From contig JAPYXD010000308.1 of assembly GCA_030998225.1 (NCBI GenBank), positions 4,598,001-4,662,000 of the forward strand: DNA of 64,000 bases. The letters are read 5' to 3'. The stretch comes from Diplolepis rosae. Its lineage: Eukaryota; Arthropoda; Insecta; Hymenoptera; Diplolepididae. The stretch's first letter is position 1; each line of letters begins with the position of its first letter. Positions 1 to 27,345 of the stretch are shown here, in pieces. Both the position numbers and the translations under genes were made by a program. Below the pieces are notes generated by a model. That model had not been told where the DNA came from, made no database searches, and was given only the letters and a program-made list of their open reading frames with translations.

Positions 1-1140
1 AATAAAATAGAGAATGGTTCTTGATTTTCGTAAATTAAATGAAAAAACAATTGGCGATTCGTATCCTTTACCTAATACAAACGATATACTTGATTCTCTA
101 GGATCAGCAAAATATTTTTCAGTGTTTGATTCAGCTACCGGTTTTCACCATATAAAAATGGATCCAAAAGACTCGCATAAAACTGCATTTTCTACACCTC
201 ACGGTCATTACGAATTCGATAGAATGCCTTTCGGTTTAAAAACTGCACCAGCCACATTTCAGAGATTAATGGATTTAACATTAACTGGATTCATCGGAAC
301 GGAAATTTTTGTATATCTGGATGACATAATTATATATGCAAATACTCTAGAATAGCACGAAATTAAATTTAACAATTTAGCAGAAAGACTTAGAAAAGCA
401 AATCTTCAATTACAACCAGACAAATTCGAATTTTTACGACTCGAAGTAGGATATTTAGGTCATATAATTGATAAAAATGGAGTACGTCCAGATCCAAAAA
501 AGATAATAGCTGTAAAAAACTTTCCAGTTCCAAAAACACAAAAAAATGTTAAACAATTTTTAGGCTTAGCAGGATATTATAGACGATTTATTGATGGGTT
601 TTCAAAAAATGCAAGTCTTTTAAATCAACTTCTGAAAAAGATATACCTTTTAATTCGGCAGAAAAACAACAAGCAGCAATCGGTATTTTAAAAGCAAAAT
701 TATGTGAAGAACCACTTTTACAACGACCTGATTTTTCTCAACCTTTTATACTCACAACAGATGCCTCAGGATTTGCAATAGGAGGTATTTTATCACAAGG
801 TAAAATAGGTAAAGATAAGCCAATAGCATATGCTTCACGTAGTCTAAGTGATACTGAGAAAAAATATGATACATATGAGAAGGAAGCTCTTGCTATAATA
901 TTTTGTGTAACTCATTTTCGTCCTTATTTGTATGGGAGAAAATTTACTTTAGTGACTGATCACAAACCTCTAGTTTGGTTTCAAAATTCTAAAGACCCTT
1001 GTTCACGAGTTTCACGTTGGAGATTGAAACTCGCAGAATATGATTTTGATGTAATTTACAAAGCTGGAAAAATGAATGTAAATGCAGACGCTCTCTCAAG
1101 AAACCCTATTGATGATAACAAAGAGAAATCAAAAAATTTA
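1..1140 (+). pseudogene. pol: Ty3/gypsy pol: reverse transcriptase and RNase H
   Basis: RT palm motifs are present: an Asp in FSVFDSATG (about 118-145), RMPFGLKTAPATFQ (about 222-260) and the catalytic YLDD box near 313-324. The thumb continues through GYLGHII and QFLGLAGYYRRF. RNase H follows with TTDASG (about 757), YEKEALAI (about 877) and TDHKPL (about 955). RT and RNase H are in different frames: a stop lies at 353-355 and a frameshift near 630-650, so this copy cannot make polymerase. The fingers are cut by the window edge. The FDSATGFHHIKM and PYPLPN-like context places it with the gypsy/17.6/297 type (family knowledge). Confidence 0.93.
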
Positions 1141-1915
1141 CAAGCCGATGACAATGATACTTTTATGAGTTCTCAAGAAAAAATGTTTTCCAAGAAAAAT
1201 TTTACAAGAAATAAACAAGAAAACTCTAAAAATGAGGTAAGACCTTCAAAACGAAGAAACTTGAATCCAGGAATCGTACCAGGCGACATAGATCGTTTTA
1301 GCGAAATTTCGGAAGCCCAAATATTAGATATCGACTCAAAAATCCCAGAATATTTTCAAGGATTTCTTAGTAAAGAATTATTTAGTGAGATTGGTAAAAA
1401 TATTTTAAAATACACAAATTTATTCAAAAATATGGCTTCAAGACTTATTTTTATGACAATATTTCCATTAAGTCCAGTGTTTTCCAAAAATACGAAAATT
1501 TTTCATGTAAAACTGTTACTACAAGAGCCCAAAAGAGAATACAACAAGAAAAAGCGAAAAATTTGAATGGAAATGACACTCAAGAAAAATTAGACGAAAA
1601 TTTTTCTTTTAAACCTCTTGTGAAAAAACCACGAGGTAAGCCAAGGAAAAATCTACTTACAAATTTGAAAAATATTCCCTGTCAAACAAAAAGAAAGAGA
1701 GGTAGACCAAGAAAACAAATGTATGAAGATGAATTACCAGAAATAAATATGCAAAAGGGAAGCCGAACAAAAGTAGAATCAGATTCCGACTCTGATCCTG
1801 ATTATTTAGATTATTTGAAACAAACTCAAGCGAAAAACAAAAAGAAGAATCCCAAGAAGCCAAAAAATATTAATGGATTTGAAAGCGAAGAAAGTGAAAA
1901 TTATTTTTCATAGCG
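1110..1915 (+). pseudogene. pol linker with paired AT-hooks, between RNase H and integrase
   Basis: After RNase H the frame continues to a stop at about 1566. A second frame (1563-1913) carries a highly basic and Ser/Asp-rich stretch. Two AT-hook-like cores are visible: KPRGKPRK (about 1626-1650) and KRKRGRPRKQ (about 1687-1716), followed by an acidic SDSDSDPDY cluster. Known gypsy elements have only a short tether between RNase H and the integrase zinc domain, so about 1.5 kb here is odd. A chromatin- or DNA-binding insertion is inference; simple low-complexity expansion is the alternative. Confidence 0.5.
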
Positions 1916-2651: not shown

Positions 2652-3801
2652 TCATAAATCTTAGGAAGAAGTGAAATCAATTTTCGATTCAATTTTTTCA
2701 AATTCAACTACAAAAATTATAGTTTGCAACGGAATAACGCAATATCCAACAAAGGAACAACGAACTCATTTAATTGAAGAAGCTCATTCTTCAGCATCAG
2801 GAGGCCATAAAGGCGTTAGCAAAAAAGGCCGAATTCGCCAAAAATTTTTTTGGGAAAATATGAAAGTAGACATTCAAAAATATATTCCAGCCTGTTTACA
2901 ATGTCAACTGAAAAAATTAATCAGAGTCAAAGCAAAAAATCCTATGGTAATCACTGACACACCCACCACTGCTTTTGAAAAAATATCAATGGACAATGTT
3001 GGTCCACTACCTGAAACAAAATCTAGTAACTTGTATATTCTATTAATACAAGACAATTTTACCAAATATTCTTTAGCAATACCTCTTCCTAATCACCAAG
3101 CTAGTACGACAGCAGATGCTTTCGTGAAAAAATTTATTTGCATATTTGGATCACCGAAAGGACTACTTACTGATCAAGGCAGAGATTTTTTAAGTAACCT
3201 GATAGAAAGATTGGCATAACGTTTTAGAATTAAACAATTTCGTACCACAGCTTTTCACCCTCAATCAAACGGATCATTAGAACGTTCACATCATTTTTTA
3301 GGGGAATATCTCAAACAATTTGTTGCAACAAATTCGGAATGGGATGATTGGCTTGAACTAGCAATGTTCTCATATAATACTAGTGTATAGGAAGGCACAA
3401 AATGCACACCCTATGAATCGGTTTTTGATAAACTAGCTCGTGAACCTTCCAGTGAACCTTTATCACAACAAGAAAAATTACAAACAAATGACGATTATTT
3501 AATTAATTTCGTAACACAACTACATGAAATGCGAACACAAGCAAGAGAGAATCTTATTTGAGCAAAAGAAAAATCGAAATTATATTATGATAAAAAAATA
3601 AATCCTTTAGAAGTAAAAATTGGAGATAAAGTATTTTTATTAAAAGGAGGTAAAATTAAAAAACTTGACAGCCATTATACACGACCTTATGAAGAATTGG
3701 AAGTGTTAGGAAAAGGGAATGTCAAAATAAGCTATAAAGGCAAATCTACTGCAATTCACATTAATAGACTAAAACGCTCACATGTGCAAGTACAAAAGTA
3801 A
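2652..3801 (+). pseudogene. pol: Ty3/gypsy integrase
   Basis: The HHCC zinc domain reads EEAHSS, GGHKG and CLQC (about 2775-2915). The catalytic core shows MDNVGP (about 2989), TDQGRDF (about 3170) and the glutamate in GSLERSHH (about 3270). A GPY/F-like module (HYTRPYEELEVLG, then INRLKR) ends at a stop at 3799-3801. In-frame stops at 3217-3219, 3388-3390 and 3559-3561 break it. Domain order and length otherwise match a full gypsy integrase. Confidence 0.92.
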
Positions 3802-4031
3802 ATAAACAAAAATAAAAACAAAATATCTTTACTTTAATTATAATATATATATTTATACATATACAATTTAAATAAATATATAAAAATTTTATTTTGTCGA
3901 TAAATAGTAAAAATATAAAAAATAAAAAATTTTTTACGAAAATATATATTTTATATAGAAAAAAAATATATATATATATATAAAACAAAAGAAAAATGAT
4001 ATTTCAGACATAAAACATTATTCCAGATATA
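3802..4031. other. AT-rich spacer between integrase and CARD ORF
   Basis: Almost pure A/T sequence including a short (TA)n run near 3967-3983. No ORF or motif is recognised. In envelope-bearing gypsy elements the env message is spliced across pol; a splice acceptor cannot be identified here by eye. Confidence 0.6.
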
Positions 4032-4313
4032 ATGGAACAAATTCATCGCAAACGCATAGATGAACTCATTGAAATACTTCCCTGTTTTATCGACATGGTA
4101 GCTCTCTGGCCGTATTTAATTCAAACTAGAATTTTCAAGCAAGATGACTGTAATATTTCCACATGGAGCAGAAACCTAAACAATCCAGATATAATAAAAG
4201 ACATTTTTTCAACAATCAAAACAAGAGGACCGGGCGCTTACAAAAATTCAACTCTCAGTTTACGGCTATCAAATCACATTGTCATAACCGACATGTTGGA
4301 TATAATAAACTAG
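4032..4313 (+). CDS. CARD-only protein (death-fold adaptor) inside the retroelement
   Basis: An intact 93-residue ORF from ATG to TAG whose whole length fits one CARD. It starts with a charged helix (HRKRIDELIEIL), then LWPYLIQTRIF-x-QDD matching the H2-H3 hydrophobic pattern. It ends with NNPDIIKDIFSTIKTRGPGA and a final LSLRLSN...ITDML helix; the TRGPGAY turn is the most CARD-like segment. CARDs mediate homotypic contacts in apoptosome and inflammasome-type complexes; in insects the CARD proteins are Dark and Dronc. It lies 230 bases after integrase and 119 bases before the glycoprotein start. The two G-relic frames and the integrase are broken, yet this ORF is not. A role as a CARD-only decoy is inference. 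Confidence 0.68.
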   Translation: MEQIHRKRIDELIEILPCFIDMVALWPYLIQTRIFKQDDCNISTWSRNLNNPDIIKDIFSTIKTRGPGAYKNSTLSLRLSNHIVITDMLDIIN

Positions 4314-4432: not shown

Positions 4433-6462
4433 ATGAGATTACGAGGCTTCCTTTTGGCACTGCTCACTTGCAACTTCAACTATATAATAACAGTCTACGC
4501 CATCATAGGATTCGATTGCGGTTCAAATAAATCGAATATTACGACATTATCTTAACTAGAGGTAGGAGAATGTGATCTACCTCGATCTCAAGTACATGTT
4601 GAAAGAACTTATATACAACTTTCACAATTAACTGGATTTTCAAATACAAAAGTAATACAATGCAAAATAGAAATTCGACGCGCCATCTCTCATTGTGGTA
4701 TGCATTCTCACAGTTCCATAGTTGCAAATGGCCACAGTGAATATATACATGATGTTACACGAGATCAATGTAATCAAATGCACACAATAGGAACATTTTT
4801 AGTAACCCCGTTTCTTCAAATATCAAAGTTAAAAGTAAACGAAACTTCATTTCATAGCGTTACTTTAGCAGGTTCTGTAACACCGAACGGAGACTGTACT
4901 GGTGAACAATTGTCTGACCCATATGGAACATGGAATAATGTCGTAGTCCAAGCAATATTCAAAATAACTTTACAAGAACATTACGCGACTATACATTTAA
5001 ATTCAAGTAAAATTCAATTAGGATCTGGAATAATATGCACACTTTCAGACACATTCTGTACAGACGTAGAATATGGACAAACATTCTGGTATACATTACC
5101 TAATGACGTATGTAATTTTGACAAATATGAAATTATTTATGAAGGACCAGCAAATAGAACATATGACAACACGACAGACAATTCTAAAACCTTTTGTTCT
5201 TTAACGACTGAAGATATATCTTTCGTACTAGCTGAAAAAACAAGAAAACCAGTTTATAGTTACCTTTTAATACAAACTGAACATCAAAAAGTATTAATTT
5301 TTGAAACCAGACCTGAAAATTCATTTTTAGAAAATAAACATTTAGAAGTTCAAAATATGGACATTTTTACATACGTTAACTCTTAATTTATATATGTAGA
5401 ACGACATATACGCACTGAAGTAAATAGACTTTTCACGACGTGCTTACTCAACGATGTATACTTGAACAGCAAGTTTTTAGAAAAACATTAACCTTAGCAA
5501 CCCAATCACCAGACGAATTTGCATATCATTTAATGAAAGGCCCAGGATATATGTCAGTAATTGCAGGAGAAGTAGTAAATATCATAAAATGTATACCGGT
5601 TGAAGTAAAATATCGCAAAACTGAAGAATGTTATCTACAACTACCAATATTTAGAGGAAATCAATTTTTTTTCCTTTCTCCACGAACTCATATATTAACA
5701 AAATCCGGTATCCAAACAAATTGCAATTATTTCCTTCCACCAATGTACCTTTTTGGAGAAACCTGGTACAAATTACTTCCAAATCCTGTCGAATCCATAG
5801 CACCAACTATAGTTAAACCTCTTACAAAAGCAACCTGGAAATACACAAATCCTTCATCCTTAGCAGCAAGAGGCATTTATTCTCAATCTGATCTTGCTAA
5901 ACTGCGAGATCATATTATGTTTCCAGTAGAAAAACCAATGATTCTAAATTCTTTAGCTAGAGAAATAACAGGACATCCAACTATTAATCAAGGAATATCA
6001 TTAACGAATTTATTCAATGAAGATGTAATTGATAAAATTGCTGAATCCGCATGGGGTAGATTTTGGACAATTTTTACAAGTTTTGGAACTACTAGCGCAG
6101 GCCTAATTGGATTCATAATAATAATTAGAGGGATTAGATTGATAACGGATACCATTATTCATGGATATGCACTACACAGATTATTTGGATGGTCTCTCCA
6201 TCTACTAGGCGCCTTTTGGGATTCGGTCACTAACCTCTTATTACACTTAGGTACCCATCGACCATCTGGACCTCCTGCTGAGAGCCATCAAGAACTGCTA
6301 ACAGCTTCAGCGCCACAAAGCTCGAAAGAGGCACCTAAAAGTTCATCGTATTACGCAAATACTACTTCAGGTAAAGATCACAATAATACAATCACAACTG
6401 TTTATCCTCACTCTGAACTAAAAGAAGAACTTAGTAGAACCCACTACTCTATCCAAATCTAA
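4433..6462 (+). pseudogene. chuvirus-like (jingchuviral) envelope glycoprotein relic
   Basis: A signal-peptide-like start (MRLRGFLLALL) is followed by a Cys- and N-glycosylation-rich ectodomain, a conserved C-terminal half with many WK/PRTHIL-type motifs, a hydrophobic segment near 6090-6150 and a hydrophilic tail. The pattern resembles chuvirus glycoproteins, which are known to have been captured by insect LTR retrotransposons (from memory of the family). Breaks: in-frame stops at 4553-4555 and 5384-5386, and a frameshift near 5440-5450. With the CARD ORF it forms the env position behind pol. Non-functional as it stands. Confidence 0.68.
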
Positions 6463-6542
6463 CATCTTCAGAATGTCGCATGTTCCTTTTACAACCTTAC
6501 TAAACAAAATTATTCAACAAAGAGTTTTTCATTTATGAAAAA

Positions 6543-7053
6543 ATTATATAATAATGAATAGTGGCAAAGATGAAGAAAATGTAAAGAAGAGGTAGCACAC
6601 AATTTATATAATGCCTTAATTAATGAATCAAAGGAAACAAATCAAAACGTCCAACCAAATTCTATTAGTAAAAATTGCAAAAAATGAAACGAAATTTGCA
6701 CTCATAATAAATTTCAGTATCCAAAATATACAGTATTAAGTATAAAAACCTCATCAAGAGACTCAACATACATAGCAATTTGTTTCATTAACAACATTAA
6801 ACAAATAGGAATAGCAAACTCGATAGAAACAGCTAAGGATTTTCCTGCCATAAAAGTTATTAATTCTCTTTCGCATAAAGACGAGAAATGTGAACTAAGT
6901 TTGATAAACTCACTAGAACATTTGCATGTAACAATTCAAGAATCACCTATAAACGATCCAAAACCTTCAACGAGTAGCCAAATAACAAAACCTATTACTT
7001 CAAATAACAACCGTGTTAAAAATACAAATTCATATAAAATGAAAAAAAAATAA
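6543..7053 (+). pseudogene. unrecognised decayed ORF with Cys pairs
   Basis: One frame stays open for about 370 bases after a TGA near 6687 that falls within a Cys-rich patch (NCKK, then NEICTH). The rest is a Ser/Thr/Asn/Lys-rich tail. No family is recognised. By position and Cys spacing it may be another member of the small zinc-binding ORF set further downstream, but this is weak. Confidence 0.3.
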
Positions 7054-7169
7054 TAATCATACTACATCATCTTTCTCTACGAAAAGCTTCAAAAAATGTT
7101 TAAAATGCGGATATAGACCTCCCAACCAGTACAATAAATTCTAATATAAACATTCCATATCGATTCAGA

Positions 7170-7749
7170 AAATCAACTGCAATGGAGCATTACTACGACG
7201 AGCCTACACACGTACCAAGTTACCCAAAAAGAAATAAAGAACAAACTCCATGAGATTTTCAAATCATGTAGAAATTTTGAGGAATTTCACGATATAATAT
7301 GGATTTCCGTTATCGCAATATACAGTTTATCCTGACCCAAATTCGAAAAGAAAGTCATTTTTTCTTGCACAAATTAATATAAATGAAAATTTTGTTATAT
7401 AAGCCGGCCCTACTAGTGAATTAGAAGAAAACAGAGCACCTCTAAAATTATTATTACTACTAATAAGATCATACGATCTCTGCGACGAAAAATTTTATGA
7501 TAATGATGATAAACAAATGCAAAAAACCAAAAATCAAAGTATTTAAACCGATCCAAGACCAAAATTAATACCTTGGGAAAATTCCTGTAGATTTTGTAAC
7601 ACTCAAATGCATGCTACAAAAGAGTGCCGTAGACGAAATTTTTCTAAAGTAAACAAATCACCCCAATTTCCCCCTCCAGTTTCACCAAGAAACTCCTTAA
7701 TATTTAGTAGACTTTTTTCCCCTTTTCTCCAAAAAACTTCTAGACCTTA
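7170..7749 (+). pseudogene. Gag/nucleocapsid-like zinc-knuckle relic
   Basis: A broken reading frame ends in a textbook CCHC knuckle (CRFCNTQMHATKEC, CX2CX4HX4C) at about 7590-7631, followed by a basic CRRR...K tail and a proline stretch. Stops at several points upstream (for example near 7250, 7402 and 7543) show decay. Zinc knuckles bind nucleic acid in Gag proteins. Its place downstream of pol and just before a second envelope gene is unusual; gag normally precedes pol. Confidence 0.5.
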
Positions 7750-7824
7750 ATCCAACCACATGTAAACATCCTATTTTATCTAATATTAATCGTACTTTTC
7801 TTTTTCAGCCTTTCGAGAAGCCTA

Positions 7825-9603
7825 ATGAATTTCCTTAATCAACTAGCATCCAGAGTGTATTTAATTTTAATTCCACTCCTTTTCTCCAAAGCAGAAAAAT
7901 ACTTCATAGACTCACAATTCTCTCATTCTTCAGTGATTCATTTTGAACCAATTTCAAAAGTTCGTCTTTTTTCTGAAAAATATCATTTTATATCTTATAT
8001 CGATATCTTTCAGCCAGACGTACTTAAATACAAAATAATAGATTTCTCACATAAATTATATGAATATTGCATACTTTCAAATATTGCCAATAATTGTAAT
8101 TTATACGATCATCAGACACAACTTGATTTTATAGAACAACGAATCAACTATTTTCTTGAAGAAATATCATTTATATCTAGACAAGCTCGTAATATCACGA
8201 ATATTTCTAAAACTAATGATCCATTTCTGCAACAGATACAAAAAGTACTTTTAGAATTGAGAATGAGACAGGAAACCTCCCTTTACTGGCCCAACGAAAA
8301 TTTATTTCTACTCCCAAATCCATTTTTCCAAAAAGTTACAAATCTTTCTTCAAAACTTGGCAACATTATGACCTACAAAAAATGGAATAATTCTCAAAAG
8401 TATCCAAATATTCTCCTATATCGAATATTAGCAGGAAATTGGCTTCAAGACCTGCATGAAATATCTCAATCTTTTCTATTACTCCTTGACCAACTCACAG
8501 AAGCCATTACCCATGCCGCAACTAATTTATGGCACCCTATGCTACTTCCTGATACCTTTTCAGACTTAAAATCCAATAAAGAAGACCTACACCTTCCAAC
8601 ATTCCTTTTTTCTATGGTCCTTCCATTTTCTAAGATACAATACTTCTTATTCGATAAGTACTTGATTTTTATTATGACTATACCAATCCCATCTGAAGAA
8701 TTACAATTATTTAAACCACATCCAATTCCAATACATCTCAATTTTAATACTGACGTAATTTCCTCTATTTACATAAAACCTCAAAATTCTTATCTCGCTA
8801 TTTCTTCAAATAACCAATCATACTTTACAACAAATGAAAATTTCCTCAATGCATGTTATCAAAATGGATTCCAAACATTTTGTCACCTATCAAAATCTAT
8901 ATCTAATATCGATAACAATCCTATTTGTGAAATATCAATGTTTCTAAATTCTCAACCATACAATTGTAAAATATTCATCAGTTTTAGTGAATATCCCTTT
9001 CTAACACCATTGCAATTTCATCATGGATGGCTATACTCGACAATTTTCCCCTGACAAATTTTCTTATCATGTCTAAAAAACTCTAAGACCTTAATCACAC
9101 TCCAAGGAATAGGAATTTTGTAAACAAAGTCAGGTTGCAATCTAGATTCATCAACTCCATATTACCATCTCCAAAACCATTTGAGTATAACAGATAATTC
9201 AATTCCTGTCAGCAAATCAACCACATCACTTGCTATAATTTCACCATTTTTATATAATATTTCTATTCAAGAGCCTCACTTACTAAAAAAGGTATTACTT
9301 CTTCTTCAGCAAAAAGAAGACTTGCCATTATCAATCTTCGAAAACCATGTCTTTATCCTTACAAAATATGCAAACATTCAAAAAATCATTCCATCTATTT
9401 TTATTTCTGGTGCACATAAATTAACATTAGCAGTAATTATTATCACTTTACTTATGATTACAATTTTAGGATTAATATTATTGAAAATTCAAAAAATATC
9501 TAAACAAATAAACAAAACAACAACACGTATAGAACTTATACAAAAAACTCCTTTAAGCTCAGTGACAAAACCTTTACTGACCGACTTGACATTCAACTTT
9601 TGA
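7825..9603 (+). pseudogene. env: baculovirus F-type / errantivirus Env-like envelope relic
   Basis: A long frame opens with a hydrophobic signal-like segment and has the layout of Baculo_F/errantivirus envelopes: a helical, Leu/Gln-rich middle, then a region with paired Cys and short beta-like motifs (YLIFIMTIPI, SNNQSYFTT). A C-terminal membrane anchor lies at about 9418-9486, with a short basic tail. The frame is continuous except for stops at 9052-9054 and 9118-9120. Total 593 codons, within the usual size for F/Env. It is the second, unrelated envelope-type gene in this element. No clear furin site is seen. Confidence 0.68.
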
Positions 9604-9945
9604 CCTTTCCTTTATTCTATCTTCCTTTTACCCTTTTTTTTAAAGTCACTTTAGAAATTTTTTTCCAGATACAGGTATATTCTATCCTTCCTTTTCTTAA
9701 AAATCACCTGCATGATAGTTGAAAGTTCTATACCGTCAGAAGGACAGTTTTTGTACCCACGTCTTTAATGTTTCTAACTAAAGAAATAACAAACTGTAAT
9801 ATAAAAGTTGTTTTTCTGACAGAAAGTAAAATACTTCTAGCAAAATCTTTTACCTTGCATGATTAGAAAATATATTCAAAAATTTATTATTCAATCTCCT
9901 TATTAGACCTTAATAAAATAAATCTATTCTAACAATTTGTAGAAA
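9604..9945 (+). other. spacer after the F-like envelope
   Basis: AT-rich, no ORF. It contains T-runs and a short repeated phrase around 9715-9800 but no promoter or terminator that I can defend. Confidence 0.5.
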
Positions 9946-10300
9946 ATGATACCAACTCCAACTGAACCTATTGTTAACCATCTTGGACCAGTAGACGGTG
10001 TATGTCCGCAAGAATATCCGATAGCATACGCGCACTTATTACAGAGTTATTGCTTTGAATTAGAACCCTCGAAATTGTTTTTAAATTATTATCATCAAAC
10101 CACAAAAAGATATTTTCAATTCTGTTTCGAAAAATTAGATCAGGAAACTCAAAATAACTGTGAGTTTTTTACTTCATGGCATTCCATTTGTAAATTGGAA
10201 TGCATATAAATATATATATATAAATTGTTACGGTTGTCAAGAACTATTAATTAATCCGCGACAAAGAGCAGCTAATTGTAACAAATGCATCGAAGCATGA
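9946..10300 (+). CDS. small CxxC zinc-binding ORF, split by an AT repeat
   Basis: The ATG frame runs 87 residues to 10,209, where a short AT-repeat (about 10,207-10,222) introduces a stop. Just beyond, in a shifted frame, NCYGCQELLINPRQRAAN-CNKC then a stop at about 10,300 completes a CX2C-X15-CX2C zinc ribbon. It shares the RQRA-x2-CxxC signature with the next ORF, so the two look like tandem paralogues. No known family is recognised. Likely broken by repeat slippage. Confidence 0.45.
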
Positions 10301-10401
10301 AAAATTTTGTAAATTTTAATAGAATCCTCAATACTAAAAAATTGTAAAATTTTGCAAATATTTCAAATTCCTTAAATATTGTAAATTTCTCCTTAGAAAA
10401 A

Positions 10402-10833
10402 ATGCTGCCTCAAGAAATCGAAATAATCGAAGCAGTAGAAGGTCGATCAAGCGAGCAGGATGTTCAGCCGCATTTTGAAAATCATTTATGGTCGGAATAC
10501 TGCTGCACAACCCTTATCGAAAATTTCTATATGAACGTCCTCGAAAAAAATCTTGTTTGCGAGCATTGTTACATGACAAAACTTAGCTTCTTTGAGGCCG
10601 AAGTAACATTGCCTGTCCGAATAGATCACATAGTCACTAAAGACTTATATTGTACCTTAAAGCTCTCCAGCCTCGACTGCTCCCTTGGCGATACACAAAT
10701 TTTTTACATGCGGCAAAGAGCAGATTTATGCGTAACTTGTGACGAACGTGTAATTTATTTATGCCAACAAGAAGCATTATATAACGACGTCGATTCCGAA
10801 GCATCCACCATTATTTATAATAACAACGAATAA
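10402..10833 (+). CDS. 143-residue CxxC zinc-binding protein, paralogue of the upstream ORF
   Basis: Intact from ATG to TAA. It is acidic overall, with EYCCTT, CEHCYMTKLSFFE and a distal RQRADLCVTCDERVIYLC. The two CXXC pairs about 60 residues apart suggest a zinc ribbon. It sits 101 bases after its paralogue and in the same orientation. Function unknown; virus-derived or retroelement accessory protein is inference. A 28-base piece around 10,530-10,557 recurs at 13,321-13,348. Confidence 0.5.
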   Translation: MLPQEIEIIEAVEGRSSEQDVQPHFENHLWSEYCCTTLIENFYMNVLEKNLVCEHCYMTKLSFFEAEVTLPVRIDHIVTKDLYCTLKLSSLDCSLGDTQIFYMRQRADLCVTCDERVIYLCQQEALYNDVDSEASTIIYNNNE

Positions 10834-11079: not shown

Positions 11080-11350
11080 GCATGAAATATCTCTTTGAGT
11101 TAGGAAACGCAGAAAGTGAATATTCTTGGAAATTCTTTCCACAAGATACGTATTTTTAGAAGAAATAGAAGGAAAAAGCTTAATCCCGGAATCCGAAATT
11201 TTCAAAATAAGTGATGAAATCAGTAAAGAAACCTTGCAAAAATGGACTAATGCATGTGAAAGGTGTTTTCGAAGAGGACATTTAGCTCATAACTGCCGCA
11301 ATCCTTTACATAATAAAAAATATAAAAATAATTTTAAAAATTATCACTAA
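11080..11350 (+). pseudogene. small zinc-knuckle ORF, frameshifted near its start
   Basis: A short ATG frame (about 11,080-11,160) appears to continue in another frame to 11,350, where a CCHC knuckle CERCFRRGHLAHNC (CX2CX4HX4C, about 11,251-11,292) is followed by a basic Asn/Lys tail. This is the second knuckle downstream of pol. It may be a nucleocapsid-like accessory protein or a remnant of a duplicated Gag end. The open part alone has no ATG at its start. Confidence 0.45.
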
Positions 11351-11796: not shown

Positions 11797-11965
11797 TGTC
11801 ACTTCCCGCGACGTATTAGAATGTACTATAGGCACAGGCTAGGTCTAGAGAAAAATCTGGGGAAATCACTAAAAGAGAGAGAAAACCACCCATTGAAAAG
11901 AGAGGTATAACTACGTCACACGCAGCGAGAGATTGCGCAATGCACGACGTCACCAAAAAATATAA

Positions 11966-11973
11966 TATAAAAA
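11966..11973 (+). promoter_or_regulatory. TATA box of the LTR promoter
   Basis: TATAAAAA followed about 30 bases later by a tagtcttg start-site-like sequence. Its position inside the inferred U3 region fits a polymerase II LTR promoter. Confidence 0.45.
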
Positions 11974-12445
11974 GGACACGCCGCCTAGGGAAAACTAGTC
12001 TTGTGAGCAGAATTTAAGTGCGGCAAATTTCTAAAAACTTAAAAGGATTCTCAGCGTGAGATAATTATACCGTGCAGTTTGACAGTGTAAAGACCCGAGA
12101 GTCATAAATTTACCGTGGTCCGTTTTACTATCCTTGAAGGGATTGAAAGATTTCGCTCTGTTGACGAAGTAAATTAAATAATAATGATTTTATTAATAAC
12201 TTTTATTTTTCATTGTTTCAAATTTTCCTCATGGAAAACAATCTTTTCTCTTCCAAATTACCCTTTAAATGATAATATTGCTATTCTTGAAAGCAAAATT
12301 ATCAATCGAAATATTCCGCACTTTGGCGATTTTTATCGTTTGTCTTCAAATTATTTTATATTGTCTTTTATTGCCTAATTTGGCTAATGTTTACGGACTT
12401 TAATTTTATTTATTGGGTTCCACGAAGGGGGAAGGTTTCGCGCAA

Positions 12446-12487
12446 TCTCTCTCTCTCTCTCTCGCTCTCTCTCTCGCTCTCTCTCTT
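12446..12487 (+). repeat. (CT)n microsatellite
   Basis: About 20 CT repeats interrupted twice by CG, near the 3' end of the inferred LTR. Confidence 0.9.
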
Positions 12488-12524
12488 CGACCCAAGTAAG
12501 TATTTACGTACTTGCGACGTTACA

Positions 12525-13289
12525 GAATAAACAAAACAAAAAAAATACGTTTTTGTTGTTTTTAAATTATTTAAAAACTGAAACTAGGAAAAATTCTAAA
12601 CAAAATTATACAAACGTATAATCACAAGGCCGATGTAGTAACATTTTTCGGAAAAATTTTTACTCCAAAGTTAATAACGAAAAAAAAAATTTTTTTAAAA
12701 TTGATTTTTTTAAAAAAACGTCATTTTTGTAAAATATGAAAAAAATTCAGCGTGATAGTCCCAATTATTACGCAAATTTTAGGTATATAATTAAGGTGCG
12801 CACGCGCAAATTGCGCGAAATATAAATTTTTTTTGCAAAGTGAGGTGCGTGGAATCACGATCTTCGATCGACGGCGATGATTGCAACTTCCACTTGTGCT
12901 GACTACCGTCTACTCTCTCATCGTTGATCACAGACTTCAATTTTGTATCCAATCTTTTCTTTCTTTTGCCTATTTCATTTCTATTTCCCAAATTATTGTA
13001 GATTTAACCACTTACACTTATACTTATCTTGTCCGTGATTTATTATTATTATTTTCGATTTTATCCGTATTTTATATACTATGATCGATAATTGACTGCC
13101 GATGACCAATCAATCCTTCATTTATGATTAATAATCGATGTTTTCTCCATCGATTATAGGTGATTAATCGTCGGTTGTCACTGAACAGTAATATTAATGA
13201 TAATTAATCCTATTTTAATAACCAGGATGGTGATACAATTATATTAATATGATAACGTTTGATTACATAATTTATACATACATACATAG

Positions 13290-13326: not shown

Positions 13327-13639
13327 CGTCCTCAAAAAAAATCTTGTTAAATCTTGTACAATTTGCGTTAAACTCAATTGAAATGAAGAAAATTAGTCGG
13401 ACGAAAAATATCATATAAGTTAAATCAATGGAAATAAAATAACCAAGTATGATTATGTCTGAAAAAAAGGAGAAAAATAGGAAAAAAATGGAGACGGACT
13501 AAAAGTTGCACAAAGATAACAATACTGCAAATGCGATAACTGCAGAGAATTACTCTAGTTTGACAGTCTTTTAATTTTATCAATATAAAAATAACAATAT
13601 AAAATAAATAATAAATATGGGCTACAATGGAAAAACTGA

Positions 13640-16600
13640 ACAAATTTGGAGATGGGATATGTTACAGCTTGTATCTTATAATTAATGTTAGCCTTCTATT
13701 ATTCAAATACTTGATCATATTCTATACACAAATATCCACTATATGTCCTCCTACAGGAGGCTACAATGAGTGACTTGACAATATAAGCAACGTTAAGGTG
13801 TTAATGAAAAAAACTCAAAACACTTTACCCGAACTTTTTGCAAATAAGGAAAATTATTAATTAAGATACTAAGAATTACAAAGGAAGTTATAACAGATAT
13901 TAATATAGCTGAAGATTCAGGGATACTAAGCTATGGTGAAAAAGGGCCAACAGTAGCACAAAAGTTAACAATACCACATACTGATTTTTAAAACGATGCA
14001 GCCGTTATTACAGGGTACTAATTACAAGCGTAACGTGTACTTCTGGGACCGTGACTTTACTTATACTGTGTGTACTACAGGGACATTATATTGTATCCCT
14101 AAAACTGCGTGAAATAAGACACAGAAGCATCTTGTACAGTACAAGGCCACCAGCGATGCATTCCTAGTTTGGCAGCTTTGTTATTTCATTAAGATAACAG
14201 AAAAATACCAAGTCACCAAATATGAACTACTTTGGAAAAACAAAACAAATTTGGATTTGCGATGGCTTTAAGAAAAGATTGTAAGATCATCTGAGCCATT
14301 AGTCTGAATAAAAAATTCTTTTATAGTCATCAGACGTAATACAGGTAAATAGAGAACAGTGCATTTCTGTCTTATTCCAATCACTGTCATGCGAAAATAT
14401 CAACAGCATAAGGACAAATAGTAAAACATCTTCTGGAATATATGAAAAACAAGCAAAAATGTTTTCTATAAATTCAATCTAATCTTTGGAGTGAATAGTG
14501 AATACAAAATTTTGCGTAAAACCACTACTATCTCTGATATAAGGCCAATAAAGGCCAATAAAGGCCAATGAAGGCCAGCAGTACCACAAAAGATATTACC
14601 GCATACTTATTTGTAGAAGGATACAGCGGTTACTACAGGCTACTAATTCTAAGCGCAACGTGTAGTTCCGGGACCGCGATCTTACTTATGCTGTGTGTAC
14701 TTCAGGAACGTTCAAAGTGTATTCCTAAAACTGCGTACAATAAAACACAGCAGTATCTTGCCCAGCACAAGGTCACCTGTAATGAAATCCTATTTTGGCA
14801 GCCTTAATATTTTATCAATATTAATAACAATCAAGCCACCGATTACGACCTACTTTGAAAAAAAAGAACAAATTTGAAGATGGCATATGTTAAAAAAATA
14901 GTCTTATTTTCTAAAAGTATAAGTAAAGGGTTCTGAACTTTATCCATTAACGCTCTTTGTTAAAGTTTAACTCAGATGTGGACTTTTACTTTATCTATAG
15001 GAAAAAATTTCAGTTCGCATTACGTAGAATAAAACCGATTTGAGGAAAACGAAAAGTTTGGACTTTTATCCATGGTCTGATGGAGTCAAGCCATTGAATG
15101 TAGAACTACTTCAGAAGGACAAATGGCAGAAATGTGGGCAAAGAATATGATTAAGTGTTCGAAATGTGGAAAGATAACATTCACCTTAAGATACAAGCTC
15201 TAAAATATCTCATTTCTAAATTTGTCCTGTTCCGTTTCTCTGAAGTAAGCCATGTTCGGTGACGTGGTTTTTTTTTATTGAAATACAAAACAGTCTGACT
15301 AGGAATGGATCGCAGGTGGTTTTGTACTGTTTAAGATGCTGCTGTGTCTTACCTTTCGCATTCATCTACTACTGCGTAGTAGAGGCGTAGCCGAGACGAA
15401 GCCGAGACAAAGCCGAGACAAAGCCGAGACGAAGCCGAGGCGCGATCAGTCCTGCGAGCATTGTCGCTCGTCACGCAATAACCCTCATTGTGTACCTAGG
15501 CATGTAATATATTATTGTCAGCCTTTACATTTTATCAATATTAATAACAATGATGTCACCGATTATGGCCTACTTAGGAAAAAAAGAACGAACTTAAAGA
15601 TGGCATATGTTAGATCTCGTATCTTAGCGTTTATATCATTTTCCCATTTCTCAAATACTTGATCACATTTTACGCACATATATCCATTATCCGTCAATCT
15701 GAAATAGGCTACAATGAGTGATTTGACTTGATCTGATTCTATTTAAATTCCAATATAGTAAGTAGTAATGCGTCTCAAAAGTCCCATCGCTTTAAGAAAT
15801 GATTGTAAGATCATCTGAGCCATTTCGATGACTACTAAGAATTTATACAAATATGTATATGGAAAGAAAGAACCCGAATTTGAATTCAAGTTTTACGTTC
15901 CTGTCAACTAAAAAGTACGTTGACAATACAAGTGCAATACCAGGTACAGTACATACAACCTTTACCTATACTTTTTGCAAATAAGAAAATATTTGAATAT
16001 AGATAGTAAGATGGTAAAAAAATTGGTTGAAGTAAGATGAATGGAGGCTAACAGTAGCACAAACGCTAATACTGCATATTTATTTGTAAAAGGATGCAAT
16101 GGTTACTACAGAGTACTAGTTTCAAGCGCAACGTGTACTTTCGGGAACGTGAACTTATTTATGTCGTGTGTACTTCAGGGACGATCAAGGTGTATTCCTA
16201 AAACTGTGTAAATTACAACACAGCTGCACCTTGCCCAGTACAATGTCACCTGTTATGAAATCCTATTTTGGCAGCCTTGACATTTTATCAATATTAATAA
16301 CAATCATGTCACCGATTATGGCCTACTTTGGAAAAAAAGCACAAATTTGGAGATGGCATATGTTAGACCTCGTATCTTATGGTTTATATTATCTTTCCAT
16401 TTCTCAAATACTTGTTCACATTTTATGTAAATATATCCATTATCTGTCCATCTGTAATAGGGCTACTATGAGTGATTGGACTTGTTCTGATCCTATTTAA
16501 ATTTAAAAATAAGTAAGCAGTAATGCGTCTCAAAAGTCCTATCGTTTTAAGAAAATATTGTAAGATCATCTGAGCCATTTCGATAACTACTAAGAATTTA

Positions 16601-16700
16601 TACAAATATCTACCATATATGAACAGAAAGAACCCAAATTTGAATTCTACGACCCTGTCACCTAAAAAGAACTTTGACAATACAAGTAGCGTCAATACGT
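13640..16700 (+). repeat. diverged tandem array of a ~0.6-0.8 kb non-coding unit
   Basis: The same ordered phrases recur at about 13,650-13,790, 13,900-14,330, 14,570-14,890, 15,510-15,950 and 16,040-16,690. Examples are gcgcaacgtgtacttcggga, cagccttgacattttatcaa, agatggcatatgttagacct and gtaagatcatctgagccatt. Unit D (16,040-16,690) is the most complete. Copies are partial and about 80-90% alike by eye. No coding frame is shared, so this is a non-coding repeat family. Copy C is interrupted by a short G/A-rich array (gacgaagccga, about 15,385-15,440). Confidence 0.7.
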
Positions 16701-17931
16701 TGTAGTGATTAACACATATTCATAAAAATCCGAAAGCGTTATTATTGCCTTTTTTCCAACCTTTTGTTTCCTTTGATTTAGTTTCGAACTTTTTGATTCA
16801 AACGAGTTCTTTCTAACTGATTGAGTAAAATTTTAAGTTCATATTCTAGTTTTGCGTCACATACCACAACAGTGTTGTATAAAATACAAGCATACTTGTT
16901 AAAGTTTTATCAAAACCCTTCACTTACAGTTTGTGCTAATCAGACAATGAATATAACAGGATAATGAATTTGTTAATAAGCATCAATACAGGTATTAAGA
17001 TAATTTATGAATCATGCCTCTAGTTAATATAAAAAATTCCTCATCTGGGAGTGCATCACAAGAGGCCCCATACTTTGTAGGATGTTCTGCAGCCCTTTCT
17101 TGCACGTCTAAGATAGTAAAATCTTTAACGTCTTGGAAGTACACGTATTTTAATCTTGTCACTGTCCCGGAAGTACACATTGCGTTCGATACTGGTACCC
17201 CGTTGTAACCGCTACGTATTTATACAAGTCTGTTTCAGCATTGTTACGTTCTTCAGATTGAAAATGAAAAAAAGTAAAGAGCGCTACAAACAGCATGTGC
17301 AAGTTAGGTTAATTACTTTTAATAACATTTTTTGAAATATTAACGTGGGAGACGAATTCTGATTGTCCTAAGAACAATCTTTCTTCACTTTGTATACGGT
17401 CCCGGAACTATACATTTTGTATATTTTTTGGAGAGGTTTTTTATATTTCTTCTTCATCAAACAAAAATTTGCATGCAGCTCATATATTAAGGAGCAATTT
17501 TCATTTCCCTACAGTTTTTTGCGTTCAGCACTTCAAAAAACCTTTAAAATTGATAAATTTCTAAAATTTCCATAAGTTTCCAGGTCCTGGAACTAACCGA
17601 TTCATAAAGTTATGTAATTCATGCATCAATTTCGTCATAAATGTCCACTGATTTTTGATTTTTCAGTAAATTTCCATGAAATTAGTCAATCTGCATCAAT
17701 TAAAGCAGATGTAATGTTCTGTTTGTATATTAAGGACTTCATTTGAACCTTATTCATTACAGTCCCCAAAGTACATGTTGCATATATTATATGCTCTAAA
17801 AATCGTAATTTTTATTATAAATGATTATTTTAAACGGCATTTGGTTTATACTAACTACGTCTTTGATCTCCAGCAAAAAAATGGGGGTTGGGAAAAGTCC
17901 CTGAAGTAAACGCTGGACAAACATATATATA
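16701..17931. other. non-coding; scattered copies of a cccggaagtacac phrase
   Basis: No gene. Variants of gtcccggaagtacacattgcg occur near 17,163, 17,397, 17,580, 17,762 and 17,893, on the strand opposite to the related phrase in the 13.6-16.7 kb array. They are probably diverged pieces of the same repeat family in inverse orientation. Confidence 0.4.
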
Positions 17932-18324
17932 CAGGGTGTCTAAAAAGTCCCGGGACGGTTGGATATTTCCTCAGGTAAAATATTTTTCAAAAAAGTGAAG
18001 GTCATTCGTAAAGTAAATTTCAACGAAAAATTCAATGGTGACCTTCATTTTGACCTTGAAGTTGACCTTCATGGCTTTTTCAAGGTCAACTTTGTTTTTT
18101 TAAATGGGAACCCCCTTTTTTACATCTGCAATCGATAGAGCGGAAAATTCTACGTTCAGATACGTACCCAAGTCATAGGTCAATTGTAAGGATCAAGGTC
18201 AATTAGAGGTTATTTGAAATAAACAAAGTTTTCCAAGAGGTCAGTGCAATTCCTGAAGTATTTTTCAACGAGGAATTCAATGGTGACCTTCATTTTGACC
18301 TTGAAGTTTCATTTTCAACATATT

Positions 18325-18657
18325 TGGTTCCAGCAGCAGGGAGCAGCGGCTCATTACGGTATGAAAGTTCGAGCATATTTGGATACTCAGTTCCCTTATA
18401 GGTGAATTGGAAGAAGGGGTGAAATCGAGTGGCCTGCTAGATCTCCTGATCTGACGCCTCTCGACTATTTTCTTTGGGGTTATTTAAAGAGCAAAGTATA
18501 CTCAACGCAACCCCAAAGCTTAGACGAATTGCAGAATCGGATTCTACAAGAGGCTACTTTGATTGATAGGGAGATGATTCGTAATGCTGTAACTCATTTT
18601 TACAATCGCATAGCTTTTTGTCAAGATCAAGGTTTTCAGTTCGAAAATCTTCACTGA
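18325..18657 (+). pseudogene. rosa-like transposase C-terminal fragment
   Basis: 110 codons ending at a TGA (18,655-18,657). It contains QQQGAAAHYG (second catalytic motif with Gln in place of Asp), an internal TGA where Trp is expected (R*IGRRG), then WPARSPDLTPLDYFLWGYLK with the third Asp. There are 41 positions between the second- and third-motif residues, the DD41D spacing of the rosa group. The catalytic Asp loss and the nonsense codon make it inactive. Confidence 0.8.
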
Positions 18658-18660
18658 AGC

Positions 18661-18829
18661 GTGAGAGGCAAGGGGACACACGCTAATCAAGCACCCCGAA
18701 ACGTGAGAGGCAAGGGGACTCACGCTAATCAAGCACCCCAAAACGTGAGAGGCAAGGGGACTCACTCTAATCAAGCAACACCGAAAAGTGAGAGTCAAGG
18801 GGACTCAAGCTAATCAATCACCCCAAAAG
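18661..18829 (+). repeat. 42-bp minisatellite, four copies
   Basis: Units start gtgagaggcaaggggac at 18,661, 18,703, 18,745 and 18,788, each ending ...aatcaagcaccccaaaa. The array begins a few bases after the transposase stop, inside the DNA transposon. A two-unit array of the same 42-bp period occurs at 50,597. Confidence 0.9.
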
Positions 18830-19301
18830 GAACAGAATTTACTACATCGACGTGGTTGTTCCTGGGTAATGCTAAACGTAAACGTAAACTGTTTGGAAAA
18901 AACCTTGAAAAAACCTTGAAGATCATCACCAAGATCAATACAGAGCTCACTAATGAATTTCTCGTTGAAATTTACCTCAGGAATTACACTGACCTCTTGG
19001 AAAACTTTGTTAATTTCAAATAACCTCTAATTGACCTTGAACGTTACAATTTACTTATGACTTTGGTACGTATCTGAATGTAGAATTTTCCGCTCTATCG
19101 ATTGCAGATGTAAAAAAAGGGGGTTTCCATTAAAAAAACAAAGTTGACCTTGAAAAAGCCATGAAGGTCAACTTCAAGGTCAAAATGAAGGTCACCATTG
19201 AATTTTTCGTTGAAATTTACTTTACGAATGACCTTCACTTTTTTGAAAAATATTTTACCTGAGGAAATATCCAACCGTCCCGGGACTTTTTAGACACCCT
19301 G

Positions 19302-20202
19302 TATATATACATATATATGTATGTATGAATAATGTATATATATATATATATATAATATAAATATTATATTCAAATGAGGCTATGTTGATAAACTCTCACA
19401 TCCTCATTAGGTTATTAATACAGCATTACTATTTTATCGACACGTGGTGCGAGTTACTGACTCATTACCATCGGTACAATTACCACACCGACAGAGCGCT
19501 GCTCTTCTTTATCACTCATTACCGAGTGTCAAACCGATCTGTCGACGTGAGGTATACATTGGTTTACCTCATTCGAACAGCTACTCGGTCCATATGACAA
19601 TGTACCATCGAAATGTTATTATATGAATAATTCAATGCTCTTTCTCCTTGGTGTGTGGCGTGTTGCCATTGCACAGGGGCAATGTGAAATTTTAAGTTAC
19701 CGGGATGTAACAACTCTTTCTTCTTTACAAAGCAAAAGAACCTTCATCGAATTTACATGCAGCTTCATTAGCTACAATTTCAACAATTATATAGAAACCC
19801 GGCCTCGAGCAACAAATTTTCAAATACTCATCATTATAAAAACAAGGTTAGTTTGTATCCTCGCTTAGGAATTTTCACGATTTGAATAAAGATTATTTAG
19901 GGTATTTAATTCCCTTTTTTATTATTGGTTATCCTCATCCCTGTTACAGTTAAAAATCCTTTAGATTTCTTTCTGTTCAAAAACGAGGAAAGTTTTACTT
20001 ATAATTAATAGGTAAGTAACCAGGACGTTACAAATATAAGAATAATGAATGTGAAAATACTAATAACATTTGTTTTGTGCCAATCCACCTATTACGTTTG
20101 CTAGTTATATGTATAGAAATAGGGTGAAACCGAGAAGCATATTAAATATGGGTACAATAAAAGAAGTCTAAATGAAGGTACAACAGAATAGAAGAATAAT
20201 AT
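19302..20202. other. non-coding; possible LTR end near 20,031
   Basis: A TA repeat at about 19,330-19,355, then sequence with an AATAAA (about 19,884) and an end ...ggacgttaca (about 20,031) like the last bases of the 11.8-12.5 kb LTR. No start or target duplication can be defined, so a solo LTR is only a possibility. Confidence 0.3.
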
Positions 20203-25640: not shown

Positions 25641-27345
25641 CAAAGGTAAGGTACTGTCGGACGGTAAGCCTTCATTTCTTCTGAACCAACTACGTAACCT
25701 CAATAACAACAAGTGCAACGACGACGTTCTTAAAACAATATTTGTAGACCAACTCCCATCGCATATCCGTGCCATTTTGACCATATCCAATGTAGACAAT
25801 CTTCAGTACCTTGCAGAGCTCGCGGACAAAAAAAATACGTTTTCGCCTATGTAGACGACATTTTCGTCGCATCGTCTGATATCGAGGAGCACGAGCGTTA
25901 CCTTAAAGTCGTTTTCTAACGACTCAGGGAGTACGTCCTGCGGCTCAACTTAGGCAAATGCGAATTCGGAAAGACAGAACTTGGGTTTCTTGGGTATTTG
26001 GTCACTAGCAAAGGGGTCAAACCTTCCCTTGAGAGACTTAAGCCCATTACAGAATTTCCGCGCCCACCAACCGTCAAAGAATTGCGCAGGTTTTTAAGCA
26101 TGGCTAACTTTTACAGGCGCAACCTGCCTCAGCTTGAACAACGTATTTCCAACGCGTGGAAGCCTTTGGCATTCTTCTCCAGAAAATTCACGCCTGCACA
26201 AAGTGCTTATAGCACTTACGATCGTGAACTCACTGCGATTTTTGAAGTGATCAAGTACTTTCGCCATTTTCTTGATGGTCAAAATTTTTCTGTGATCGCC
26301 GATCACAAGCCGCTTATGTACGCTTTGTCCCAGAATTCTTTTAAGGCGTCTCCTCGCCAGCAGAGGCAACTCACGTATATCTCGCAGTTCACTTAGAGCA
26401 TCTTATACCAGCCTGGTACCGAAAACGTTGTGGCGGACTCCTTGTCTCGTGTGGAGACAATTAGACTGCCCACAGAGTGGAATCTGTTCGAGCTGACCGA
26501 CGCCCAGAAGAACGATCAGTAACTTCCGGATTTGATCAACAACCCGGATATGTCCATCAATCTTAAAAGGATTTAATGGGGGCCTGATCACACCACGATT
26601 TATTGCGACTTGACGGGCGAAGCTCTCCGCCCATACATTCCAGAATCTCTGCATAAACGAGTCTTTAGCTTACTCGACGAACCTGCTCATCCGAGCAAGG
26701 TCACGGACAGGGTTATCCGTAAGCGCTAAGTTTGGCCCTACATGCAAAAGGACATCGCACGATGGTGTAAGCCTTGCGTGGATTGCCAACAATCCAAAAT
26801 ATCACGATATAACCACGTAATTCCAGCAGATTTTGTCGCCATAGACGGACGTTTCAAACATGTCCACGTGGACATTGTAGGCTCTCTTCCTGAGAGTAGA
26901 GGATATAGATATCTTCTCACGCTGATAGATAGATTCTCGCGTTGGCCGAAAGCTGTCCCCCTCAAGGACATGGAGGCCCTGACCGTTAGTCAGGCTTTCG
27001 CGGACCACTGGATATCTCGCTTCAGCGCCCCAGAGACCTTGACAACTAATCAGGGCGGCCAGTTCGAGGCAAAACTGTCCAAGGCACTCTTGCAACTCGT
27101 GGGTTGTCAAAGAAATCTAACTATCGCCTACCATCCTGCTTCGAATGGTATAATCCAGCGGTGGTATCGTAGCTTGAAAGCCGCCTTAATGTGCCACACC
27201 GGCACCGACTGGTCACTTTCGCTATCCACTGTACTTCTCGGACTGAGATCTAACGTAATGGACATCGGTTTATCTCCCGCCGAATTCGTATATGGTACGA
27301 CACTCATAATTCCCGGTGACAGTTTTTACTGCATACACAATTTTT
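25641..27345 (+). pseudogene. pol: second Ty3/gypsy element, gag-to-integrase with large internal deletion
   Basis: Capsid C-terminus (PSFLLNQLRNL, IFVDQLPSHIRAIL), then a jump straight to the RT YVDD box (about 25,840). RT thumb (LGFLGYLVTSKGV), RNase H (SAYSTYDRELTAIFEV, VIADHKPLMYAL) and integrase (CVDCQQSK, HVDIVGSLPES, TNQGGQFE) follow, to about 27,340. Protease and most RT are deleted and several stops interrupt it (for example near 25,917, 26,394 and 26,727). It is GC-richer than, and unrelated in sequence to, the gypsy element at the left edge. No LTRs are recognised. Confidence 0.9.

Follow-up and report, generated by a model that had tools for sequence, protein, structure and literature searches.

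Why does a decayed retroelement carry an undamaged reading frame for a caspase recruitment domain (CARD), from where was this frame acquired, and what might it do? These questions were raised by one window of Diplolepis rosae DNA, that is, the whole 64,000-nucleotide stretch C154:4598001-4662000, taken from a genome of 757.7 Mb which is recognized as that of an insect by its genes and relatives. The frame lies on the forward strand, with its ATG at 4032 and its stop ending at 4313, encodes 93 residues, and is separated from the integrase stop at 3801 by 230 bases, in agreement with the position, length and spacing that an initial annotation had reported from the letters alone. The insect apoptosome consists of Dark and Dronc, which are also named in the title of PDB entry 3j9k. 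We consider it fairly probable that, taken jointly, the frame is an accessory CARD captured from a Dronc-type host gene, expressed from its own spliced message, maintained by selection, and acting as a decoy against the apoptosome.

The CARD frame and its copies

The initial annotation had assigned the product to the CARD family and proposed profile and Foldseek searches as the check; the assignment was borne out at the family level by the profile search and by the predicted fold. The Pfam CARD profile PF00619 matched 13 out of 15 family members at E<=1 (best 2.8e-7), and no other Pfam domain was detected in the window frame. The family profile matched CED-3 at 1.2e-5, with the Dronc CARD (PDB 8y6q, 3j9k) and caspase-9 also among the best sequence matches. 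The predicted structure displays a six-helix death fold with a split helix 1, and several of its fold matches are CARD filaments. Several observations weigh against this assignment. The window protein by itself scored 13.4 bits, below the PF00619 cut-off of 23.9, and returned no CARD when searched in PDB; neither did the profile of its subfamily, whose top PDB match was a designed repeat protein (1.7e-6). A first structure model, built from near-identical rows, was poor (pLDDT 57) and was discarded, and no Foldseek match of the predicted fold had an E-value <0.001. The aligner also cautions that helical bundles can gain a high Z from their arrangement alone, and a designed protein scored 11.6. 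Overall, profile and predicted fold support a CARD-family protein.

The same annotation had contrasted the intact CARD frame with the broken pol and env frames around it. Compared with the related copy L064, we counted 11 stops or frame-shifting gaps in the first part of pol (pol_a), three in the integrase piece, three in env, five in the first double-stranded RNA-binding domain (dsRBD) open reading frame (ORF), and none in the CARD ORF. The observation thus holds, but it is weak as an argument by itself, since the pol, env and dsRBD pieces hold 22 breaks in 6,760 bases, a rate that predicts 0.91 for the 279 CARD bases (P ~0.4), and the intactness of this one copy is not significant against chance. 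The same figure is what favors a passenger, i.e., a host fragment or chance open frame without function for the element, as an open 93-codon frame beside broken ones would be met about 40% of the time in the window copy alone. What raises the CARD ORF above chance is its conservation between subfamilies, which makes a passenger extremely improbable, unless the low dN/dS values given below stem from the choice of open frames.

All copy counts given here come from sets picked by CARD similarity. A first scan of the genome gave 1150 candidate copies, and 145 of the best-scoring 150 were without a stop, a set biased by its selection on score. The Pfam CARD search of the same genome, which brought out additional, diverged subfamilies, gave 61 matches, 37 of them over the curated cut-off; of the 30 fetched, 29 are CARDs of elements and the remaining one, L036, is not an element CARD. 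Under a strict filter, a 93-codon ATG-to-stop frame was present in 49 out of 60 loci (L036 included), and a few copies read longer, such as L073 with a 123-codon frame. At L059:493-1740, integrase and CARD stand within a single open frame of 416 codons. We named the subfamilies A (which includes the window copy), B, C and D. All 15 aligned members from the four subfamilies are 93 residues long, those of B, C and D being 42-55% identical to the window protein, and public relatives, some of them from Belonocnema kinseyi (Cynipidae), extend this range down to 39%.

The location of the CARD ORF is the same in A, B and C, and its recurrence between integrase and env is confirmed in 44 of the 59 element loci with 1.5-kb flanks; integrase was found upstream in 48, and env downstream in 54 (chuvirus-like in 48, Baculo_F-like in six). 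Against this stands the subfamily D flank (L060), in which only env was detected and no integrase within 1.5 kb. The dN/dS check put forward in the initial annotation gave ratios of 0.10-0.44 in 62 pairs among 12 open sequences from all subfamilies, the remaining four of the 66 pairs being saturated, and synonymous change significantly exceeded nonsynonymous change (P<0.05) in 65 out of 66; these figures are tempered by the selection of the set among open frames and by the non-independence of the pairs. As the subfamilies differ at 33-45% of their bases, such low ratios are hard to obtain otherwise, and at the sequence level they show purifying selection on the CARD between subfamilies.

Kinship with host CARD genes

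Relatives outside the elements include caspase-type genes with introns. In the protein search, the final part of such a CARD precedes the caspase domain PF00656 in the non-element sequence P0128, and the non-element P0125 and P0126 display an apparent intron after codon 46. On contig C95 of the same genome, two CARD exons (L078) are followed about 11.6 kb further on the same strand by caspase exons (L072), which we read as one Dronc-type gene. A second, two-exon CARD gene was found on C395 (L077:1235-1620), its exons being 85% and 69% identical to Belonocnema kinseyi LOC117174601, and it possibly encodes a host CARD-only protein. In both genes, codon 46 is followed by a phase-0 intron whose ends are proper in the genomic sequence, and the element CARD ORFs are intronless. 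Identity of the window CARD is 44% with the C95 CARD, 47% with the C395 CARD and 24% with fly Dronc. For the 14 named tree sequences from A-D, it ranges over 42-55% with the C395 CARD and 43-48% with the Dronc-type CARD; the two host CARDs are 52% identical to each other.

The tree placed element CARDs with host CARDs, apart from CED-3 and caspase-9, at 94% support, and does not separate the C95 and C395 genes as the nearer donor. It also holds two points that weaken a simple capture history: fly Dronc falls within the host group on a long branch, and element CARDs form no resolved clade apart from the host genes, with one and several captures not separable. Kinship to host Dronc-type CARD genes and the missing intron are nevertheless shown in the sequences compared. 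Since intronless element ORFs share this identity with intron-bearing host CARDs, a spliced caspase-type prodomain was probably captured without the protease, and P0128, L078 with L072, the intron position and the identities all point to such descent, the donor being either the caspase gene or the other host CARD gene. The annotation had left the source as host or viral, and the intron-bearing Dronc-type relatives support the host. Acquisition from another virus, for instance a DNA virus, would have a precedent in the CARD-only proteins of vertebrate iridoviruses; however, the viral fold matches are weak (best E 0.77), the viral-contig scan gave 190 pattern matches with none confirmed as a relative, and both host CARDs of the same genome are as close as described above, making this source very improbable.

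A further CARD exon was detected at L036:1435-1830 (minus strand; 29.8 bits, over the Pfam cut-off) with no element gene found beside it; examined as Dark or Dronc, it showed neither identity. The element CARD may be directed at another host CARD protein, such as that of C395 or the one behind L036, and not at the apoptosome. The C395 gene, intron-bearing and with a Belonocnema counterpart, is indeed as close to the A-D sequences as the Dronc-type gene, but because its CARD shares 52% identity with that of the latter, the interface is likely to be the same, and we regard a target outside the apoptosome as unlikely.

Architecture and expression of the carrier element

The assignment of the carrier to Ty3/gypsy, already made in the initial annotation, is supported by the sequence of copies elsewhere in the genome that are bounded by long terminal repeats (LTRs), as these repeats and the domain order are those of a Ty3/gypsy-type insect endogenous retrovirus. 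In pol, RVT_1 and PF17917/PF17919 are followed by Integrase_H2C2 and rve, which is the gypsy order, and gag displays CCHC knuckles by eye. The copy on C58 is about 21.2 kb long, its LTRs agreeing at 97.9% over 852 bases and at 99.8% over 547, and the copy on C359 is about 17.6 kb long, with LTRs 99.7% alike over 765 bases. Because both pairs are near-identical, elements of this kind have moved recently. The full order is LTR, leader ORFs (in C58), gag, pol, CARD, chuvirus-like env, two double-stranded RNA (dsRNA)-binding-like ORFs, Baculo_F-like env, cysteine-rich ORFs (one in C58, two in C359), a dsRNA-binding ORF with a CCHC knuckle, and LTR. The window copy keeps this order down to a 3' LTR remnant, the only LTR remnant there (Table 1). 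The envelope relic that had been noted directly downstream of the CARD is present, but it is not of gypsy type, being a chuvirus-like PF24664 glycoprotein.

Table 1. Positions of the features recognized in the window copy and the evidence for each.
Feature	Position	Strand	Evidence
Relic of pol with RT (reverse transcriptase) and RNase H, frames broken	14..1566	+	PF00078 E 2.4e-21 on 14-355; 94.9% DNA identity to L064 over 1-1910
pol spacer from RNase H to integrase, with a basic, AT-hook-like stretch	1563..1913	+	AT_hook PF02178 in relatives L061, L062; window frame by reading
Integrase, zinc-binding and core domains, stop 3799-3801	2671..3801	+	PF17921 E 2.9e-15, PF00665 E 1.3e-9 on 2671-3219; tblastn 85% to L059 integrase over 2782-3768
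Splice-acceptor-like AG, 5 bases 5' of CARD ATG	4025..4026	+	Motif only; AG 5-7 bases before ATG in 53/54 loci
CARD-only ORF, 93 aa, intact	4032..4313	+	Family profile search, predicted fold, dN/dS
First env, chuvirus-like fusion glycoprotein (Monjiviricetes), broken; ATG 4433, last frame to 6462	4433..6462	+	PF24664 E 1.6e-67 (4700-5386), 2.2e-114 (5440-6462)
dsRNA-binding ORF 1, broken	6422..7141	+	tblastn 65-94% to L064 frame (dsrm PF00035 2e-10); window piece 15.7 bits, under cut-off 23
dsRNA-binding ORF 2, knuckle-like motif at end (by eye), broken	7062..7747	+	tblastn 85-95% to L064:3-533 over 7062-7573, a frame that narrowly misses the dsrm cut-off (E 6.2e-4, 20.7 bits); 7547-7747 without a Pfam match
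Second env, Baculo_F-like, frame broken between 9051 and 9124	7744..9600	+	PF12259 E 3.4e-14 on 7825-9054; single 602-codon frame in L067
Cysteine-rich ORF x	9943..10297	+	Homologue in L062 (42% over 43 residues) and L067; Pfam nothing over cut-off
Cysteine-rich ORF y	10348..10830	+	Frame also in L067; Pfam nothing over cut-off
dsRNA-binding ORF 3 remnant with CCHC knuckle	11120..11347	+	zf-CCHC_3 E 1.6e-4, under cut-off; L067 ORF dsrm 9.3e-7 and CCHC
3' LTR remnant	11797..12528	+	11797-12063 93.6% identical to C359 LTR; short matches 12484-12528

Out of the three dsRBD-like ORFs, two exceed the Pfam cut-off in an A copy and one in a B copy. The dsrm domain is over the cut-off in one ORF each of L061, L063, L064 and L067, and dsrm-like ORFs under it were noticed at L064:3-533, at L061:8637-8975 and in ORF 3 of L062 and L066. 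Some B copies are without the first env and the next two ORFs, and retain the CARD. An exchange of envelopes between L061 (chuvirus-like env after the CARD) and L062 (Baculo_F-like env after the CARD) was considered and rejected, as the extended C58 copy has both. Identity of L062 to C58 is 96-97% until 33 bases past the CARD stop and resumes at 91.5% from position 101 of L066, a point within the Baculo_F env or immediately upstream of it. This pattern is best explained by an internal deletion of about 3.3 kb; recombination with a sister lineage, for which the lower identity on the far side would speak, could also account for it.

With respect to expression, an AG stands 5-7 bases before the CARD ATG in 53 out of 54 loci and in all subfamilies, compared with a background of 0.038 per position, and by eye several subfamilies have an AG right in front of the env start as well. 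As the AG lies just before the start codon, the CARD is probably translated from a spliced message of its own. The loci L004, L008 and L028, whose homology seemed to end immediately upstream of the acceptor AG, were considered as reverse-transcribed spliced messages and rejected, their upstream pieces being rearranged, unrelated or diverged, with no leader joined to the AG.

Other features were noticed near the elements. On C359, beside the CARD element, L070:5804-7054 (minus strand) holds a 417-aa frame with a double-jelly-roll match (PF21738, E 1.7e-119) and two adjoining frames, perhaps a Polinton- or adintovirus-like insertion. In the window, a second, distant Ty3-like integrase stretch lies at 26715-27296, with 31-33% identity to the integrase of the CARD element, and 13616-19309 harbors diverged direct repeats and some inverted pairs.

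A putative decoy and its parallels

On the mechanism we propose, an ancestral element in a wasp-like host would have copied, through a spliced mRNA, either a Dronc-like CARD gene or the prodomain (CARD) of an initiator caspase of Dronc type, without the protease part. Placed between pol and env, and probably translated like env from its own spliced message, as the AG motifs suggest, its predicted fold would have been kept under purifying selection. The protein would then occupy CARD surfaces of Dark and/or Dronc while bringing no protease, so that cells in which the element replicates, or which it infects, might undergo less apoptosome-driven death. A decoy is the plainest reading because a lone prodomain can bind partners but brings no protease, and the block of cell death suggested in the initial annotation stays an inference in our analysis as well. 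A functional CARD might instead gather or mildly activate Dronc, or form CARD filaments, for the benefit of the element, through non-lethal caspase activity, cell fusion or particle assembly. Sequence and fold cannot separate inhibition from assembly, and the filaments among the fold matches would suit such a role; the element protein has no protease domain, though, and the excerpted text of PMC4457926 describes human CARD-only proteins as decoys and an iridovirus one that lowers apoptosis. We therefore hold activation to be rather unlikely and keep to the decoy.

The parallels of this gene are found in cells, in viruses and in other retroelements. The Dronc CARD of the same genome is a close likeness, but its gene, as read, has the intron and a protease domain. 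Human ICEBERG, COP/Pseudo-ICE and INCA are copies of the caspase-1 prodomain and serve as CARD-only decoys, but they are cellular genes acting against caspase-1 and are not mobile. The iridovirus GIV-CARD and the ranavirus vCARD are similar in being lone, caspase-CARD-like domains of about 91-93 aa on a virus genome, and GIV-CARD lowers apoptosis and the activity of caspase-8 and -9 (excerpt of PMC4457926). They belong, however, to large DNA viruses of vertebrates and resemble caspase-1 and ICEBERG, whereas the CARD here is Dronc-like and belongs to an insect LTR element.

Errantiviruses (Ty3/gypsy) share with the carrier the LTRs, gag, a pol with reverse transcriptase, RNase H and integrase, and a Baculo_F-like env, the last being the feature that speaks for kinship; the element here differs in its ~18-21 kb, the extra chuvirus-like env, the CARD and dsRBD genes, and the gag knuckles seen by eye. 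Anakin, a mosquito Pao element, likewise uses a chuvirus-type glycoprotein as the env of an LTR element, but it is BEL/Pao and not gypsy, and its abstract mentions no CARD (PMC7642597). For gypsy, the excerpted text of PMC10084718 reports no clear evidence of chuvirus glycoprotein capture; the LTR-bounded copies described here are, judged from sequence, a case of it. LTR elements of bdelloid rotifers have captured non-env accessory ORFs (ORF3; GDSL, DEDDy), and one lineage took its env from negative-strand RNA viruses, but the captured functions are different and the abstract names no cell-death gene (PMC5408684). CARD-only viral proteins and accessory ORFs of LTR elements are thus both known, and among the matches listed from the open-licence PMC literature none concerned an LTR element with a CARD or dsRBD gene, or a gypsy-type element with a Dronc-type CARD.

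The presence of the dsRNA-binding ORFs and the CARD in one element suggests a putative counter-defence gene set. We put at about even chances the wider proposal of a complex, recently active insect retrovirus lineage of 18-21 kb which counters apoptosis with a captured caspase CARD and RNA interference with up to three dsRNA-binding proteins, and which has two unrelated envelopes, CARD and env being expressed from separate spliced messages. The best-studied insect defence against LTR elements is the piRNA pathway. If our reading is true, a decoy taken from a host initiator caspase would mean that apoptosis, too, is a barrier which insect retroelements must defeat, and binding to Dark and Dronc would offer a handle on it, in an element that brings together two envelopes and dsRNA-binding accessory genes.
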